A stretch of DNA of 64,000 bases from NCBI RefSeq assembly GCF_003688495.1, contig NZ_REFH01000007.1, positions 496,001 to 560,000 of the forward strand. The letters run 5' to 3'. This document shows positions 9,376-28,761 of this stretch, one piece after another; positions within the stretch are counted from its first letter, which is position 1, and every line of letters starts with the position of its first letter. Source of the stretch: Flavobacterium weaverense. GTDB lineage: Bacteria; Bacteroidota; Bacteroidia; Flavobacteriales; Flavobacteriaceae. Under the pieces are notes generated by a model. That model ran no database searches. It was not told where the DNA came from and saw only the letters and a list, made by a program, of their open reading frames with translations. Position numbers and translations under genes: made by a program.

Positions 9376-10854
9376 CTAAACGCTAAAAGTAGTTCCTTCT
9401 TTTCCATCTTTCAACTGGATTCCTAAAGCAACTAATTGATCTCTAATTTGGTCAGATAAGGCAAAATTCTTATTATCTCTAGCTTGCTTTCTCATTTCGA
9501 TCAACATATTAACTGTTCCTTCTAGTTTGTCGTTATTGCTGTCAGATACTTTCTCGTCTTCTAAACCTAAGACATCAAATACAAAAGCGTTCATAGCTTT
9601 TATAAAAGATTCTAAGTCAGCAGACGTCAAATTTTCTTTACCGTCATTTAGTAAATTGATGAATTTTACACCTTCAAATAATTGTGCTATCAATATAGGT
9701 GAATTGAAATCGTCATTCATTGCATCGTAACATGACTGTTTCCAAGCTGATATGTCAATAGTACTTTTTGAATTTGGGGTAATTTCTTTTGCTACACTCA
9801 GTGCTTCCATCAATCGTTTGTACCCTTTTTCTGCAGCAACAATTGCATCATCAGAAAAGTCAAGAATACTTCGGTAATGAGCTTGTAACATGAAAAATCG
9901 TGCTACAGAAGCTGAAAATGCCTTACTAAGAATTGTGTTTTCTCCCGTAAGTATTTCTCTTGGTAAAATATTATTACCTGTTGATTTGGCCATCTTTTTA
10001 CCGTTCAACGTAAGCATGTTGGCATGAAGCCAGTAATTAACTGGAGTTTGACCAGTACAAGCTTCGTTTTGAGCAATTTCGCATTCATGATGCGGGAATT
10101 TTAAGTCCATTCCGCCTCCGTGAATGTCAAAGTGATTACCTAGATATTTTGTACTCATTGCAGTACATTCTAAATGCCATCCTGGAAAACCATCGCTCCA
10201 AGGTGAGGGCCAACGCATAATATGCTGTGGTTCTGCTTTTTTCCAAAGTGCAAAATCTTGTGGATTTCTTTTGTCAGTCTGACCATCAAGATCTCTAGTA
10301 TTAGCTAACATATCCTCAATATTACGACCACTTAATCTGCCATAATGATTGGTTTTATTAAATTTCACTACATCAAAATAAACAGACCCATTTGCTTCGT
10401 AACCTATTCCATTATCAATTATAGTTTTGATAATTTCTATCTGCTCAATGATATGACCTGTAGCTGTCGGCTCAATGCTTGGTGGCAAAAAGTTGAATGC
10501 GTTTAGGATGTCGTGGAAATCTACCGTGTATCGCTGAACTACTTCCATAGGTTCCAGCTGTTCTAAACGAGCTTTTTTTGCAATTTTATCTTCACCTTCG
10601 TCTTCATCATCAACAATATGTCCAACATCAGTAATGTTTCTAACGTAACGAACTTTATAATCTAAATGTAAAAAATACCTAAAGATCACATCAAAAGACA
10701 TGAAGGTACGTACGTTTCCTAAATGCACATTGCTATAGACTGTAGGTCCGCAAACATACATTCCAACATTTCCTTGATGGATTGGTTTAAATGTTTCTTT
10801 TTCTCCTGAAAGAGAATTGTATATTTTGAGTGTTTGCGTTTCGTATAAAGGCAT
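9376..10854 (-). CDS. cysS: Cysteinyl-tRNA synthetase
   Basis: 492 residues, class I aminoacyl-tRNA synthetase. The HIGH motif appears as HLGN (residues 44-47) within [17 protein letters not shown]; the zinc site uses the Cys in MYVCGPTVY together with later ligands in GWHLECTAM and HHECEIAQ; the KMSKS loop is KMAKSTGN near residue 285. The C-terminal DALR-type helical region follows. It attaches cysteine to tRNA-Cys. It starts a leftward group with yidD and lgt. A dispersed intergenic repeat element lies directly upstream (10871-10952). Confidence 0.96.
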
Positions 10855-10870
10855 TTAGTTTATTTTTTTT

Positions 10871-10952
10871 AGGAGCTAATTCCTGCTTTTCGCTTCAATC
10901 TTTCTATTTTTTCGTAAAACTAGAAAGGATTTCCACTGCAATCAGGGCTAGG
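10871..10952 (+). repeat. Dispersed palindromic intergenic element, copy A
   Basis: Begins AGGAGCTAATTCCTGCT and ends CAATCAGGGCTA. The middle contains an internal stem TCTTTCTA / TAGAAAGGA. Copies B (23741-23834) and C (27492-27585, opposite orientation) share the end blocks GGAGC, CCTGCT, CGCT, ATCTTT on the left and AGGAT, CGCT, ATCAGGGCTA on the right, while the loop differs. It lies between folE and cysS. Confidence 0.7.
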
Positions 10953-11027
10953 ATTTATTGCTGATAACTTAATTTAGACTTACTTCTATTTCCCCTTTAA
11001 TTACCGCCGTAACGGGATTATAAGGAT

Positions 11028-11699
11028 TTAGAACTTAGTTTCTAGTTTAATGTAATCTAAGAATTCTCTTCGAGTAACACTATCTTTAAATTTCCCACCA
11101 AACTCTGAAGTTACGGTACTACTTTCAATATCGCTGATTCCTCTTGAGTTTACACAAAGGTGTTTTGCATCAATTACACAAGCAACGTCTTCCGTTCCTA
11201 GTGCTAGTTGCAATTCTTGAACAATTTGCATAGTCAAACGCTCTTGTACTTGTGGCCTTTTAGCGTAATATTCAACAATTCGGTTCATTTTTGATAAACC
11301 AATAACTCTTCCGTTTGAAATATAAGCTACATGAGCTCTTCCTATTATTGGTAATAAATGGTGCTCACAAGTAGAATATACAATGATATTTTTCTCTACC
11401 AGCATTTCGCCATACTTATAGTTATTATCAAATGTTGAAGCTTTAGGTTTTTTTTCTGGATTAAGACCACCAAAGATTTCCTTCACAAACATTTTAGCAA
11501 CACGATTAGGTGTTCCTTTTAAACTATCGTCTGTCAAGTCCATTCCTAATGTCAGTAAAATACTCTCAACATCTTTTTTTATTTTCTCAATTTTCTCATC
11601 ATCAGAAATGGCAAAAGCATCATCTCTCACTGGGTTTTTTGCGGATAAACTAACGTGATTATCTCCTATTTCGTCTTGAAATTCTTCTTTATTTATCAT
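11028..11699 (-). CDS. folE: GTP cyclohydrolase I
   Basis: 223 residues. The C-terminal two thirds is a T-fold enzyme with the zinc and catalytic motifs STCEHHLLPIIGRAHVAY, the IGLSKMNRIVEYYAKRPQVQ segment and CVIDAKHLCVNSRG (second zinc cysteine). The homodecamer converts GTP to dihydroneopterin triphosphate, the first step of tetrahydrofolate synthesis. The first ~35 residues are a poorly conserved acidic extension, common in this family. Transcribed leftward; it is separated from cysS by 173 bases holding repeat element copy A, and probably has its own promoter in the 329-base space to its right. Confidence 0.95.
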   Translation of the reverse strand: MINKEEFQDEIGDNHVSLSAKNPVRDDAFAISDDEKIEKIKKDVESILLTLGMDLTDDSLKGTPNRVAKMFVKEIFGGLNPEKKPKASTFDNNYKYGEMLVEKNIIVYSTCEHHLLPIIGRAHVAYISNGRVIGLSKMNRIVEYYAKRPQVQERLTMQIVQELQLALGTEDVACVIDAKHLCVNSRGISDIESSTVTSEFGGKFKDSVTRREFLDYIKLETKF

Positions 11700-21325: not shown

Positions 21326-23641
21326 TTATTTAGCACTATTTTTTAGTATTTGATGAACAATTTCTTTTGTTGGTTTCTGATCTTTTAGTTTCGATCTAAC
21401 TTCATCAAAAGTAACTTTAAAGTCGCAACCGAGCTTATATTGGTCGCAACCGTAAGCTATTTTTCCTTTTAAAATTGTTCCTTTTTGACATTTTGGACAA
21501 GCCAACGCATCAGAATTTATCTTGTTTTCAGTCACTGGTTTTAGATTTGCTGTTTTCTTAACTTCAAGGATAAGTTTGAAATCTTCTCCAAATCTAATAA
21601 GTCCTTCTTGTAAACCAGCATCAGTTTTAAAGTCTTTTAAATTAACTGTCGACCCTTTTTGAAGTAATCGCAAATACTGATTCTCTGATATTTTTTTATC
21701 TGCAAAAACATATGGAAGTAAGAATGTACAGCCTGCTTTATATTCGCTACAGCCATATGCTGATTTTCCTTTTATAAGAGAACCACTTTTACATTTTGGA
21801 CAAGCTTCTGCCAAAATTCCAGCAGCTTTCTTTTTCTCTATTTTTACAACTTCTTTTGGAGCAGCTGCAGCGTGCGAAATATTAGCATGTCGCTTTTCAC
21901 TGCGAACTTCATCTACTAAAACTTCGATCATTCGCTTCATATTATTAATAAACGATCCAGCAGTATAAGTTCCCTTTTCAATATCTTTTAATTGCTTTTC
22001 CCAAGAACCAGTCAGCTCCGCTGATTTTACTAAATCGTTCTGAATAGTATCGATTAGTTGGATTCCTGTTGGAGTAGGTAGCACTTGTTTTTTATTTCTA
22101 ACGATATATTGCCTTCTAAAAAGAGTCTCAATAATATTAGCTCGTGTCGATGGTCGGCCAATACCGTTTTCTTTCATCAATTCTCGTAGATCTTCATCAT
22201 CAACTTGCTTTCCCGCAGTTTCCATCGCACGTAATAAAGTAGCTTCTGTAAACTGATTGGGCGGTTTAGTTTCTTTTTCTAAAAATGAGGGTTGGTGCGG
22301 ACCTTTCTCTCCTACAATGAAAGTTGGTAAAATATCAGCTTCTTTTTCTTTACTGTTGGGATCTTCAAAAACGATACGAAAACCTTTTTTCAAGATTTCT
22401 TTTCCAGTTGTTTTAAAAGAAACATCAGCTGCTTTTCCTATAACTGTCGTGTTAGCTACTAAACAGTCATCATAAAACACAGCTATAAAACGTTTTGTTA
22501 TTATATCATAAACTTGCTGTTGGTTGTATTGCAACTTATTCTGAATTCCAGTGGGAATAATGGCGTGGTGATCCGTTACTTTTTTATCATTAAAAACCTT
22601 TGGTGATTTTTTAATCTTTTTTCCTAAAAGAGGTTGTGTCAACGCAGCGTAATTAGTCAAATTTTGTAAAATCCCAGGGACTTTCGGATAAATATCGCTT
22701 GGTAAGAAAGTAGTATCTACTCTAGGATACGTAACTACCTTTTGTTCATATAAGGTCTGAACGATTTTTAAAGTCTCATCAGCTGTAAAACCAAATTTTG
22801 TATTGCAATATACTTGAAGTCCTGTTAGATCAAATAATTTAGGAGCAAATTCATTACCATTCTTTTTTTCGACAGAGATTATCTCAAAATCACTTTCCTT
22901 TACTTTATTCGCTAGAAGTTCTCCATCTTCTTTTTTTAGAAAACGGCCTTCTTCATAACTGAATAGTACATCTCGATATAAGGTTTGTAATTCCCAGTAA
23001 GGTTGTGGTTTGAAGTTCTCAATTTCTTTAAAGCGGTCTACCACCATGGCTAATGTTGGCGTTTGAACTCGTCCTATAGACAGAACTTGTTTATATCCGC
23101 CATGTTTTACGGTGTATAAACGGGTAGCATTCATACCTAATAACCAGTCACCAATAGCTCTAGAGAATCCTGCGTAATATAAATTATCGTAATTAGCAGA
23201 CGGTTTTAAGTTTTGAAAACCTTCTTTTATTGCTTCGGTGGTTAGAGATGAAATCCATAAACGCTGGACTTCGCCTTTATACTTTGCTTCGTTCATCACC
23301 CAGCGCTGTATTAATTCTCCTTCTTGTCCCGCATCCCCACAATTAATCACTAATGTGGCTTTATCAAATAAACTTTTAATGATTTTAAATTGCTTTTGAA
23401 TCCCAGAATTCTCTACTACTTTAGTTTCAAATTTTTCAGGAAGCATGGGTAAATTATTCAAATCCCAACTTTTCCAATGTGGTTTGTAATCGTTGGGTTC
23501 TTTTAATGTGCATAAATGTCCAAAGGTGTACGTCACCGCATAACCATTACCTTCATAATAACCATCATGTTTGGTATTAGCTCCTAATACAGATGCAATT
23601 TCTCGTGCAACACTTGGTTTTTCGGCAATACAGACCTTCAT
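21326..23641 (-). CDS. topB: DNA topoisomerase III (type IA)
   Basis: 771 residues. TOPRIM domain at the N-terminus (CIAEKPSVAREIASVLG, with acidic residues again in NCGDAGQEGELIQRWV), then the type IA core with the active-site tyrosine in VVTYPRVDTTFLPSDIYP, and the conserved ENGIGRPSTRANIIETLF. The C-terminus carries two similar Cys-containing modules (CPKCKSGSLIKGKSAYGC and CPKCQKGTILKGKIAYGC), zinc-ribbon-like repeats that bind single-stranded DNA. It relaxes negative supercoils and decatenates. TopB homologues occur both in chromosomes and on conjugative elements; no other element genes are nearby, so I take it as chromosomal. Confidence 0.92.
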   Translation of the reverse strand: MKVCIAEKPSVAREIASVLGANTKHDGYYEGNGYAVTYTFGHLCTLKEPNDYKPHWKSWDLNNLPMLPEKFETKVVENSGIQKQFKIIKSLFDKATLVINCGDAGQEGELIQRWVMNEAKYKGEVQRLWISSLTTEAIKEGFQNLKPSANYDNLYYAGFSRAIGDWLLGMNATRLYTVKHGGYKQVLSIGRVQTPTLAMVVDRFKEIENFKPQPYWELQTLYRDVLFSYEEGRFLKKEDGELLANKVKESDFEIISVEKKNGNEFAPKLFDLTGLQVYCNTKFGFTADETLKIVQTLYEQKVVTYPRVDTTFLPSDIYPKVPGILQNLTNYAALTQPLLGKKIKKSPKVFNDKKVTDHHAIIPTGIQNKLQYNQQQVYDIITKRFIAVFYDDCLVANTTVIGKAADVSFKTTGKEILKKGFRIVFEDPNSKEKEADILPTFIVGEKGPHQPSFLEKETKPPNQFTEATLLRAMETAGKQVDDEDLRELMKENGIGRPSTRANIIETLFRRQYIVRNKKQVLPTPTGIQLIDTIQNDLVKSAELTGSWEKQLKDIEKGTYTAGSFINNMKRMIEVLVDEVRSEKRHANISHAAAAPKEVVKIEKKKAAGILAEACPKCKSGSLIKGKSAYGCSEYKAGCTFLLPYVFADKKISENQYLRLLQKGSTVNLKDFKTDAGLQEGLIRFGEDFKLILEVKKTANLKPVTENKINSDALACPKCQKGTILKGKIAYGCDQYKLGCDFKVTFDEVRSKLKDQKPTKEIVHQILKNSAK

Positions 23642-23740
23642 TTTATGCTAATTATTTGAAGTCGCAAATTAGGAATTTAGAAATTGGTACCGAAGTGAAA
23701 TCATCAGGAGTTATGAACGATGTCGTTTTTCAAAATTGTT

Positions 23741-23834
23741 AGGAGCAAAACTTCCAGATTTATCAAAGCGTTTTGTCCTGCTGTCCGCTGTATCTTTCCG
23801 CAATGCTACGAGGATGCCGCTTCCATCAGGGCTA
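23741..23834 (+). repeat. Dispersed palindromic intergenic element, copy B
   Basis: Starts AGGAGC, then after a ~30-base insertion relative to copy A continues with TCCTGCTGTCCGCTGTATC and ends AGGATGCCGC...CATCAGGGCTA. It lies between the lipoprotein gene at 23905 and topB. Confidence 0.65.
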
Positions 23835-23904
23835 TTAATATCGCTTAGTTTTCATAAGAGCTGGTAATTTGAAGAACTAACTAACTTATTGTTATTTGGG
23901 ACTT

Positions 23905-27303: not shown

Positions 27304-27491
27304 TTTTATTTTTCATTTAAAAATTAATTTTTAGAGAACTATTTATGAGTTATAGTTTGTGAGAATTAAGAAAGAATAGACCTTTGATTTTATCTCTCTT
27401 AAAAGGGATAGCATTCATTAGAAGATTCAAAAAAGTGACGTATAAAAAACAATCTAGAAATCTAGAAATAATTTTAACTAGCAGAAAATAC
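27304..27491. other. Intergenic sequence between the kinase and prfA
   Basis: Part of the 454-base divergent space between 27230 and 27685. Besides the kinase promoter (27271-27303), repeat element copy C (27492-27585) and the prfA -7 element (27655-27662), I see no gene here. Confidence 0.4.
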
Positions 27492-27585
27492 TAGCCCTGA
27501 TTGTAGCGATATCCTTTTATTTTAGTTAGTAGCGGCAGCATAAAACTAAAATAAAAGATACAAGCGGAAAGCAGGAAGTAGCTCC
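27492..27585 (-). repeat. Dispersed palindromic intergenic element, copy C (inverted)
   Basis: On the minus strand it begins GGAGCTACTTCCTGCTTTCC and ends ACAATCAGGGCTA. The inner stem ATTTTAGTT / AACTAAAAT is long and specific to this copy. Same end blocks as copies A and B. Confidence 0.7.
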
Positions 27586-27654
27586 AAGAAATAGCATTAT
27601 TTAAAAGGAGTAAAATTGAAAAGAGCAAGTATCGAACTATAAATAAAAATTTCG

Positions 27655-27684: not shown

Positions 27685-28761
27685 ATGTTAGATAGACTTC
27701 AAATAGTAAAGCAACGTTTCGATGAGATTTCGGATTTAATCATTCAACCGGATGTAATCTCAGATCAGAAGCGTTATGTGCAATTGAATCAAGAATATAA
27801 AAGTTTAAAAGCTTTAGCAGAGAAACGCGATGAATACGTGGTTTTGATGGCTAATATCGATGAAGCTAATGAAATAATTGCTGATAATAGCGATGCAGAT
27901 ATGACCGAAATGGCCAAAATGCAGCTTGATGAGGCAAAAGAAAGATTGCCAGCACTTGAGGATGAAATCAAATTTATGTTGATTCCTAAAGATGCAGAAG
28001 ATGCTAAAAATGTTATGGTTGAAATTCGTGCCGGAACGGGTGGGGATGAAGCGAGTATTTTTGCAGGTGATTTGTTTCGTATGTACACAAAATATTGCGA
28101 AAATAGAGGCTGGAGAACTTCTGTAGTTGATATGAATGAAGGAACTTCTGGCGGATTCAAAGAGGTTATTTTTGAAGTAAGCGGGGAAGATGTTTACGGA
28201 ACATTAAAATTTGAAGCTGGTGTTCACCGCGTACAGCGTGTTCCACAAACGGAAACACAAGGTCGTGTACACACTTCTGCAGCGACAGTTATGGTACTTC
28301 CAGAAGCTGAAGAGTTTGATGTGCAAATTGATATGAATGATGTACGTGTTGATTTTTTCTGTTCGTCAGGACCAGGTGGACAATCAGTGAATACAACTAA
28401 ATCGGCAGTTCGTTTGACACACATTCCTACAGGTTTAGTAGCGCAATGCCAAGATCAAAAATCACAACATAAAAATAAGGATAAGGCTTTTGGTGTTTTA
28501 CGTTCTCGTTTATACGAACAAGAATTAGCTAAAAAGCAGGCTGAAGATGCTACTAAACGTACTTCACAAGTAAGTTCAGGTGACCGTTCTGCAAAAATTC
28601 GTACCTATAACTATTCACAAGGTCGTGTTACTGATCACCGAGTTGGGATGGATGTTTTTGATATGGATGGTGTAATGAATGGTAAAATTCAGAAACTAAT
28701 TGATGAGTTACAATTAGTTAACAATATGGAGAAGTTAAAAGAAGCAAGCGAAGTATTCTAA
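27685..28761 (+). CDS. prfA: Peptide chain release factor 1
   Basis: 358 residues. An N-terminal helical domain is followed by the codon-recognition domain and the catalytic domain. The peptidyl-tRNA hydrolysis motif is GGQ in [18 protein letters not shown]; the stop-codon-reading tripeptide appears as PQT in [15 protein letters not shown], at the position of P-x-T in RF1 (RF2 has SPF), so this is RF1 acting at UAA and UAG. There is no self-frameshift signal as in prfB. It is followed by a strong terminator. Confidence 0.95.

Follow-up and report, generated by a model that had tools for sequence, protein, structure and literature searches.

The three related intergenic palindromes in the window, by which we mean the whole 64,000-nt stretch of Flavobacterium weaverense DNA that was analysed, are members of the Rfam family Flavo-1 (RF01705). 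Our preferred reading, to which we give close to an even chance, is that Flavo-1 would be a repeat that folds at the DNA level on one specific strand, is inherited in place and has an exchangeable apex. The family is already known and named; what goes beyond the published accounts that we found is this DNA-level reinterpretation together with the replacement of the apical hairpin, the latter being the result that was least expected.

Identity of the three window copies

A whole-window cmscan against Rfam 15 returned exactly three matches at or above a gathering score, all of them to Flavo-1, with scores of 73.8, 63.6 and 51.5 bits (E-values 2.3e-14, 1.5e-11 and 3.1e-8) against a gathering score of 42. 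Each copy aligned to the model over its full length (positions 1-76 of 76), consensus hairpin included, and the same three places were found by R1, a covariance model built from 22 copies of the F. weaverense genome. The copies, their parts and the neighbouring genes are as follows.

9376 to 10854, minus strand: cysS (cysteinyl-tRNA synthetase), used for the synteny test (PF01406, E 6e-99)
10866 to 10955, minus strand: Flavo-1 copy 1, short type A (Rfam 73.8 bits at 10875-10953; R1 91 bits)
10900 to 10927, minus strand: variable apical hairpin of copy 1 (read from the sequence; paired in the DNA fold)
11028 to 11699, minus strand: folE (GTP cyclohydrolase I; PF01227, E 4e-61)
21326 to 23641, minus strand: topA-like DNA topoisomerase gene adjoining copy 2 (PF01131, E 4e-117)
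23738 to 23839, minus strand: Flavo-1 copy 2, long type A (Rfam 51.5 bits at 23770-23837; R1 46.7 bits at 23759-23839, minus strand)
about 23741 to 23769, minus strand: P3, an additional hairpin at the low-coordinate end of copy 2 (paired in the RNA fold)
27487 to 27591, plus strand: Flavo-1 copy 3, short type A (Rfam 63.6 bits at 27489-27582; R1 75.5 bits)
27514 to 27557, plus strand: variable apical hairpin of copy 3 (read from the sequence; long paired stem in the RNA fold)
27685 to 28761, plus strand: prfA (peptide chain release factor 1), adjoining copy 3 (PF03462, PF00472)

Copy 1 sits between cysS and folE, sense to cysS, copy 2 between topA and a DUF6265 gene, and copy 3 between a histidine kinase gene and prfA. 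The preliminary description of this DNA had proposed three intergenic copies of one structured element, the third inverted, with conserved end blocks around a variable, self-complementary middle, and each part of that proposal agrees with the present results: a single Rfam family with covarying stems, not three unrelated terminators, occupies the three places, on strands -, - and +. Its start for copy 2 (23741) extends past the Rfam model because this copy has an extra small hairpin. Folded as DNA, copy 1 was more stable than its shuffles (z -2.64; 1 of 200 shuffles as good), and copy 3 was more stable than shuffles as RNA (z -3.51; 0 of 200 as good); the stability of copy 2 as RNA did not exceed that of shuffles (z +0.71).

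Distribution and published record

Flavo-1 was discovered in 2010 by comparative genomics and, in the relevant part of that report, is listed for the Bacteroidetes (Weinberg et al. 2010, PMC2864571). Its Rfam type is sRNA, and a 2022 review places it among the most abundant sRNA families, giving no function in the section concerned (PMC9029176). The statement in the preliminary description that neither name nor function was known is therefore corrected in its first half, the name being Flavo-1, and stands in its second, as the openly licensed literature on Flavo-1, RF01705 and flavobacterial palindromic repeats yielded no explanation of function. The window copies are like RF01705 in hairpin, strand and taxa as well as members by score. 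The 76-position Rfam model covers only the helix P2 and the near ends, to which the present analysis adds the type B three-way junction, the P3 hairpin, apex replacement, the conservation of sites and a folding strand independent of the genes.

The F. weaverense genome (3.40 Mb) holds at least 66 matches at E ≤ 1e-3, from 150 of 858 first-look candidates that were scored. Across the genus Flavobacterium, this genome included, Flavo-1 occurred in 93 of 101 genomes, many with at least 41 matches, which bears out the suggestion in the preliminary description that similar sequences exist elsewhere in Flavobacterium; eight genomes had no match and six more had 1 to 5. In the Flavobacteriaceae, at least one match was found in 100 of 149 genomes, nearly all of different genera, with at most 29 candidates scored in each.

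Anatomy, subtypes and covariation

Classified by pattern, 43 of the 66 F. weaverense copies were type A, 19 were type B and 4 were neither. The unit measures 70 to 150 nt, its left end reads TAGCCC or GCGTGAGGG (GGAGC on the other strand), and both arms, as read from the copies, bear the same internal-loop motif. In the Rfam orientation the 5' part of type A runs from a pyrimidine-rich stretch through TAGCCCNGAT, NGNAGYG, a purine and NATCC into the variable stem, after which the 3' part reads GATNGNAGYG, AGCNGGA, a few bases or a hairpin of ~30 nt (P3), GCTCC and an A-rich end. The order in type B is GCGTGAGGGAT, core, AGCCCGACC, variable P3 hairpin and CACGCCCAAA, the pattern of a three-way junction, with a closing helix, P1, that the Rfam model does not reach; P3 was absent from one of these 19 copies. 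A longer form of ~150 nt has an inner GAGCGAC..GGAAGCTC hairpin, seen in the F. weaverense copy C2_321765 and in copies of the related genome G032, with variants at loci L168 and L170; the same hairpin or its variants were also noted at L279, L290 and L274. The long form may represent a third subtype, one that has a binding partner of its own.

Alignments were made of 22 of the 43 type A copies (A1) and of 18 of the 19 type B copies (A2, the copy without P3 excluded). Covariation is strong. In type B (n = 18) the P1 pairing GCGTG/CACGC is replaced by GCACA/TGTGC, GCATG/CATGC and GCGCA/TGCGC, and at the base of P2 GGG/CCC changes to GTG/CAC and AGG/CCT. Of 180 cells in this alignment 98.9% were paired compared with 90.6% in shuffles, 6 of 10 pairs had changed on both sides, and the covariation score of 0.30 exceeded all 500 shuffles and every slid control; on one of the five measures, the number of further pair types, type B was not above shuffles (7 versus 8.1). 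Among 50 copies from genomes G182 and G008, 98.5% of cells were paired versus 78.3% in shuffles and 15 of 21 pairs had changed on both sides, in an alignment that was fitted to the model. The preliminary description had made its proposal depend on further copies in this genome and on compensatory changes in the stems; the former number at least 66 and the latter are plentiful.

Strand of folding

A strand that folds tolerates G·T but not A·C mismatches, and its opposite shows the reverse; therefore G·T should outnumber A·C on the strand that folds. We counted both mismatches in 185 distinct apical hairpins drawn from 233 copies (66 from F. weaverense, 59 from G032, 52 from G182, 25 from G008 and 31 from others), a set in which copies are partly orthologous and 9 of the 233 overlap an ORF of at least 120 codons. 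On the Rfam strand G·T exceeded A·C by 67 to 20 (p 4e-7), and the search models, being strand-specific and scoring G·U above A·C, may favour such copies near threshold. With copies of at least 60 bits (F. weaverense bits from Rfam, G032 bits from R1), the counts were 28:10 for both genomes together (p 0.005) and 17:3 for G032 alone; for F. weaverense alone the excess was not significant (11:7, p 0.48). Counting over the entire hairpin, with its fixed internal loops, reverses the direction (G·T 275, A·C 335, p 0.02); the apical helix was taken as the proper region and replaced this count because the internal loops hold fixed non-pairs. The A·C cells of the apex are lopsided, with C on the 5' side in 17 of 20.

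The G·T:A·C ratio was similar in every gene setting, at 17:6 where both neighbouring genes are sense and 26:7 where both are antisense (Fisher p 0.75), 14:4 between divergent and 10:3 between convergent genes. By this mismatch count, the same strand seems to fold whether it is sense or antisense to its neighbours.

Genomic placement and promoters

Judged with a simple ORF caller, 65 of the 66 F. weaverense copies were free of overlap with ORFs of at least 80 codons. Forty-five lay between co-oriented genes, 12 between divergent and 8 between convergent genes, and 1 near a contig end; the 45 co-oriented settings comprised 20 sense and 25 antisense copies. In the set of 233, antisense copies numbered 100 versus 55 sense, these copies not being independent, as sites are common to several genomes. 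The motif TANNTTTG, which we take to be the flavobacterial -7 promoter motif, was present in 17 of 202 copies in the 60 nt upstream of the element and directed towards it, compared with 14, 15 and 30 in three other placements, and showed no fixed spacing relative to the element in these 202 copies. With no sense bias and no excess of promoter motifs, an autonomous Flavo-1 RNA gene is therefore not indicated by the sequence data.

On the single contig of G032, 40 of 59 copies in the stretches fetched were on the plus strand, and binning 49 listed copies by position on the contig revealed no switch of side; GC skew over the fetched stretches of G032 gave no clear origin or terminus by which to judge a replication-strand bias.

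Persistence of sites across species

Copies stay at their sites across species, as seen in one species pair and, at the cysS site, in part of the genus. The pair consists of F. weaverense and G032, with about 82-83% identity in the two gene regions compared, and 1.2 Mb of G032 was used: 400 kb of contiguous DNA chosen regardless of copies and 800 kb around known matches. Thirty of the 66 F. weaverense sites had both flanks in this DNA, and G032 has a copy at 25 of these 30, always with matching orientation. Within the 400 kb chosen blind to copies, 6 of 6 F. weaverense sites were occupied; that stretch held 14 copies, 8 of them with no counterpart among the 66. The site of copy 3 is occupied in G032 in the same orientation, and at the site of copy 2 (C1_519770) G032 has an internal deletion in which the P2 hairpin is missing and the ends remain. 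Four of the five unoccupied sites were read, C2_894 being left out. C2_492379 retains a remnant of the right end; C3_277579 and C1_113895 have no recognisable remnant, and their surroundings have changed too. At two further sites that are occupied in G032, G256 and G182, F. weaverense has no copy, one of the two having a short remnant. No clean empty site with a target duplication was present among the unoccupied sites read.

Upstream of cysS, Flavo-1 was found in 26 of 80 named loci, 24 times sense to cysS and twice inverted. The same-orientation copies lie 1 to 58 nt before the gene, mostly 7 to 15 nt, and the two inverted ones are sister rows on an 81-row cysS tree, on which presence of the copy needs 12 changes versus 22.8 in shuffles. 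In F. glaciei, F. psychrolimnae and F. caseinilyticum (L135, L137 and L141) a different palindrome, of the CTCCCTTCCCTTTGGGGAGGG type, stands in place of Flavo-1 at this site.

Replacement of the apical hairpin

G032 has a counterpart for 23 type A sites, and 20 of these entered the comparison of apices, the internally deleted site and two occupied ones being absent. Arm identity was 0.87 at orthologous sites versus 0.72 at non-orthologous ones (p 1e-7), and apex identity was 0.60 at orthologous sites versus 0.49 elsewhere (p 0.017). The apex values were widely spread, reaching at least 0.70 at 7 of 20 sites versus 12 of 380 non-orthologous pairs and falling below 0.6 at 9 of 20 despite the common site. 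A narrower set of 16 sites gave 0.55 versus 0.49 (p 0.29), its pattern having dropped mainly conserved apices; at 16 sites the arms were more alike than the flanks (means of 0.84 and 0.87 versus 0.70 and 0.78). From these identities the apex does not appear to be simply decoupled from its site: some sites have kept it, and others have had it replaced.

At five common sites the apex in G032 is a variant, with 0 to 2 differences, of one 16-nt cassette, CACGCTTTTGGGCGTG, and F. weaverense has a different stem; arm identity there is 0.91 to 0.98 at three sites and 0.75 to 0.76 at two. A pattern for the cassette matched 8 sites in the fetched G032 DNA and 4 in F. weaverense. At one site each of four species shows a state of its own: one has the cassette, one a different stem, one a stem built from the CCTGAACTTGTTTCAGG palindrome and one a short remnant. 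At the site of copy 1 relatives have other hairpins in the apical position. As judged from these comparisons, some sites have had their entire apical hairpin replaced, and the arms keep a site-specific signature. Palindromes of the TTGCGAGGAACGAAGCAATC type, CCTGAACTTGTTTCAGG and the GACCCTTCGACTGCGCTCAGGGTGAC type are presumably repeats in their own right. Such palindromes form the apical hairpin in F. weaverense at G000:C2:169548 and C3:84159 and also at L172 and L343; a scan with the TTGCGAGGAACGAAGCAATC-type pattern found none in the window, in the first 400 kb of G032 or in the RAYT loci.

Relation to RAYT transposases and mobile DNA

The preliminary description had suggested a REP-like element and a possible link to a REP-associated tyrosine transposase (RAYT), and this part of it did not hold up beyond a weak association. 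The F. weaverense genome has one RAYT match:

L068:9300-10700 (G000:C4, around 255,300-256,700): RAYT (NF047646, 92.1 bits, cut-off 80)

Two inverted copies of GATAGCGCGGATTTGCAATCCGTGCC, or of a close variant of it, stand on either side of the gene, and this REP is unlike Flavo-1. The GATAGCGCGGATTTGCAATCCGTGCC pattern, with up to 3 substitutions, matched 20 of the 30 RAYT loci compared in the genus, for the most part as inverted pairs by shared words; a strong Flavo-1 match was found in 2 of the 30, about background density, and two further loci gave Flavo-1 at 15.6 and 20 bits, which is noise level. Five genomes with at least 41 Flavo-1 matches each (G002, G008, G023, G039 and G053) had no RAYT match at E ≤ 1e-3, G008 having at least 59 of the former. 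Uncorrected for kinship and genome size, RAYT over the cut-off was present in 47 of 93 Flavo-1 genomes versus 0 of 8 others (p 0.007) and RAYT at E ≤ 1e-3 in 79 of 93 versus 4 of 8 (p 0.03); for Pfam Y1_Tnp the counts were 74 of 93 versus 4 of 8 (p 0.08). By published definition a rayt gene lies between two inverted REPs, each with a GT(A/G)G head followed by a small palindrome, as set out in the relevant part of Nunvar et al. (2010, PMC2817692); the Flavo-1 copies that were read lack this head. Flavo-1 resembles REP/REPIN elements with RAYT in being a short intergenic palindrome with tens of copies and compensatory changes, and differs in not flanking RAYT genes, in the head and in its unit of about 70 to 150 nt. 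Membership as the REP of the RAYT was rejected on the different REP at the RAYT, the 2 of 30 loci with Flavo-1 and the Flavo-1-rich genomes that gave no RAYT match.

Several side observations concern these genes. The RAYT family usually has an HxH motif; the F. weaverense protein reads SSHIN, and the gene may be decaying. The Flavobacterium RAYT genes (L405-L434) have at least two classes of REP, the GATAGCGCGGATTTGCAATCCGTGCC type and the CTGCGCAAAGTCTCCCGACTTTGCGCAG type, and 6 of the 7 matches to the GATAGCGCGGATTTGCAATCCGTGCC class in 1.2 Mb of G032 are in L331, next to its RAYT. By eye, GATAGC-GCGGA-like letters are common to the REP of the RAYT and part of the Flavo-1 5' arms.

Away from chromosomes Flavo-1 was hardly seen. 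One 77-nt Flavo-1 copy had no match in plasmid or phage records, a weak test with a single query. Two exact patterns run against a viral collection, likewise a weak test, matched 0 and 1 contigs, the single match being one complete copy at L435:475-560 in a 30-kb viral contig; it is possibly flanking host DNA. A gene-bearing version of the element was considered and rejected: 13 of 335 5' half-sites (not deduplicated) were without a 3' half within 260 nt, and extending the distance to 4.5 kb gave no unpaired 3' half for any of these 13. The DNA compared showed no enzyme, excision product or transposition event for Flavo-1.

Interpretation and alternatives

Under our preferred reading of Flavo-1 as a DNA-level folding repeat, one fixed strand, that of the Rfam model, would fold into a long imperfect hairpin made of P1 and P2 with a bulged C and internal loops, and in the type B copies into a putative three-way junction with P3 as the third hairpin. 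Folding would take place in single-stranded DNA. The simplest account of apex replacement would be that folded copies recombine or that templates switch between them, and the arms may have been retained through ongoing conversion or through selection for a folded site that binds a protein. The long-ago dispersal of the copies was presumably the work of an enzyme that handles folded single-stranded DNA, other than a RAYT transposase. There are likenesses to known DNA elements: by description, to repeats of the BIME and ERIC type, which are intergenic imperfect palindromes of similar length, stable in place, and, in architecture only, to integron attC sites, in which one strand folds into a structure with a variable terminal hairpin, a bulged base and conserved arms. 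A stronger version, in which Flavo-1 would be no RNA gene family at all and a recombination activity would swap apices in place, making no new sites, by exchange between sites and perhaps also with other palindromic repeats, we consider unlikely.

The alternative that we rate highest is a true RNA element, a cis-acting leader, UTR structure or small RNA that was dispersed and is functional as a transcript, and we regard it as rather unlikely. It would agree with the Rfam type, with the strong covariation, with the excess on one strand of G·T, which is G·U in RNA, and with the sense copy before cysS in 24 of the named loci; Flavo-1 matches in F. psychrophilum coincide with several transcribed 5' regions, although the same account describes the matches as sense or antisense indistinctly and many as lying outside transcribed regions, in the part of the report that deals with them (PMC9723704). 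The absence of a sense bias in F. weaverense, the folding of antisense copies on the same strand and the lack of a promoter-motif excess also speak against it. On balance the strand, promoter and orientation data lean towards DNA over structured RNA, as far as sequence comparison can tell. All of these results would also allow the element to act as RNA at individual sites, above all at cysS, where site conservation and sense orientation could just as well be those of a cis-acting leader. A transcription terminator or attenuator is highly improbable and was rejected as a candidate: stable hairpins between genes would suit it, but the right end of the 43 F. weaverense type A copies is rich in A and not in T on the folding strand, where a Rho-independent terminator would have a T-run after its hairpin, orientation is not tied to gene direction, and the 12 copies between divergent genes are also against it.

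A site of chromosome architecture or protein binding, selected at fixed places and with no mobility of its own, seems to us decidedly unlikely. BIMEs bind gyrase or IHF, and a comparable role would be in keeping with the conservation of 25 of 30 testable sites in place and orientation, the common internal-loop motif of the two arms and arms that are more alike than their flanks; against it are the genomes of the genus with no or few matches and the two sites at which F. weaverense lacks a copy that three other genomes have, and plain duplex binding would need no covarying pairs. That Flavo-1 is a REP or REPIN moved in trans by RAYT is very improbable. Its palindromic form, intergenic position and many copies, the one RAYT of this genome, the association uncorrected for kinship and the letters common to both repeats are in favour of such mobilisation, and are set against the different REP that flanks the RAYT genes, the background density of Flavo-1 at these loci and the genomes rich in Flavo-1 with no RAYT match.

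The DNA-level reading and the apex replacement should be of interest to specialists on repeats and on bacterial RNA families. The apex replacements offer a concrete, testable system in which bacterial hairpins appear to be exchanged in place without being lost, and the copy before cysS, at the same place in many species, is a site for a clean test of an RNA role. If Flavo-1 is a DNA element, then, judging from its copy numbers, many loci now annotated as sRNA genes would be mislabelled.
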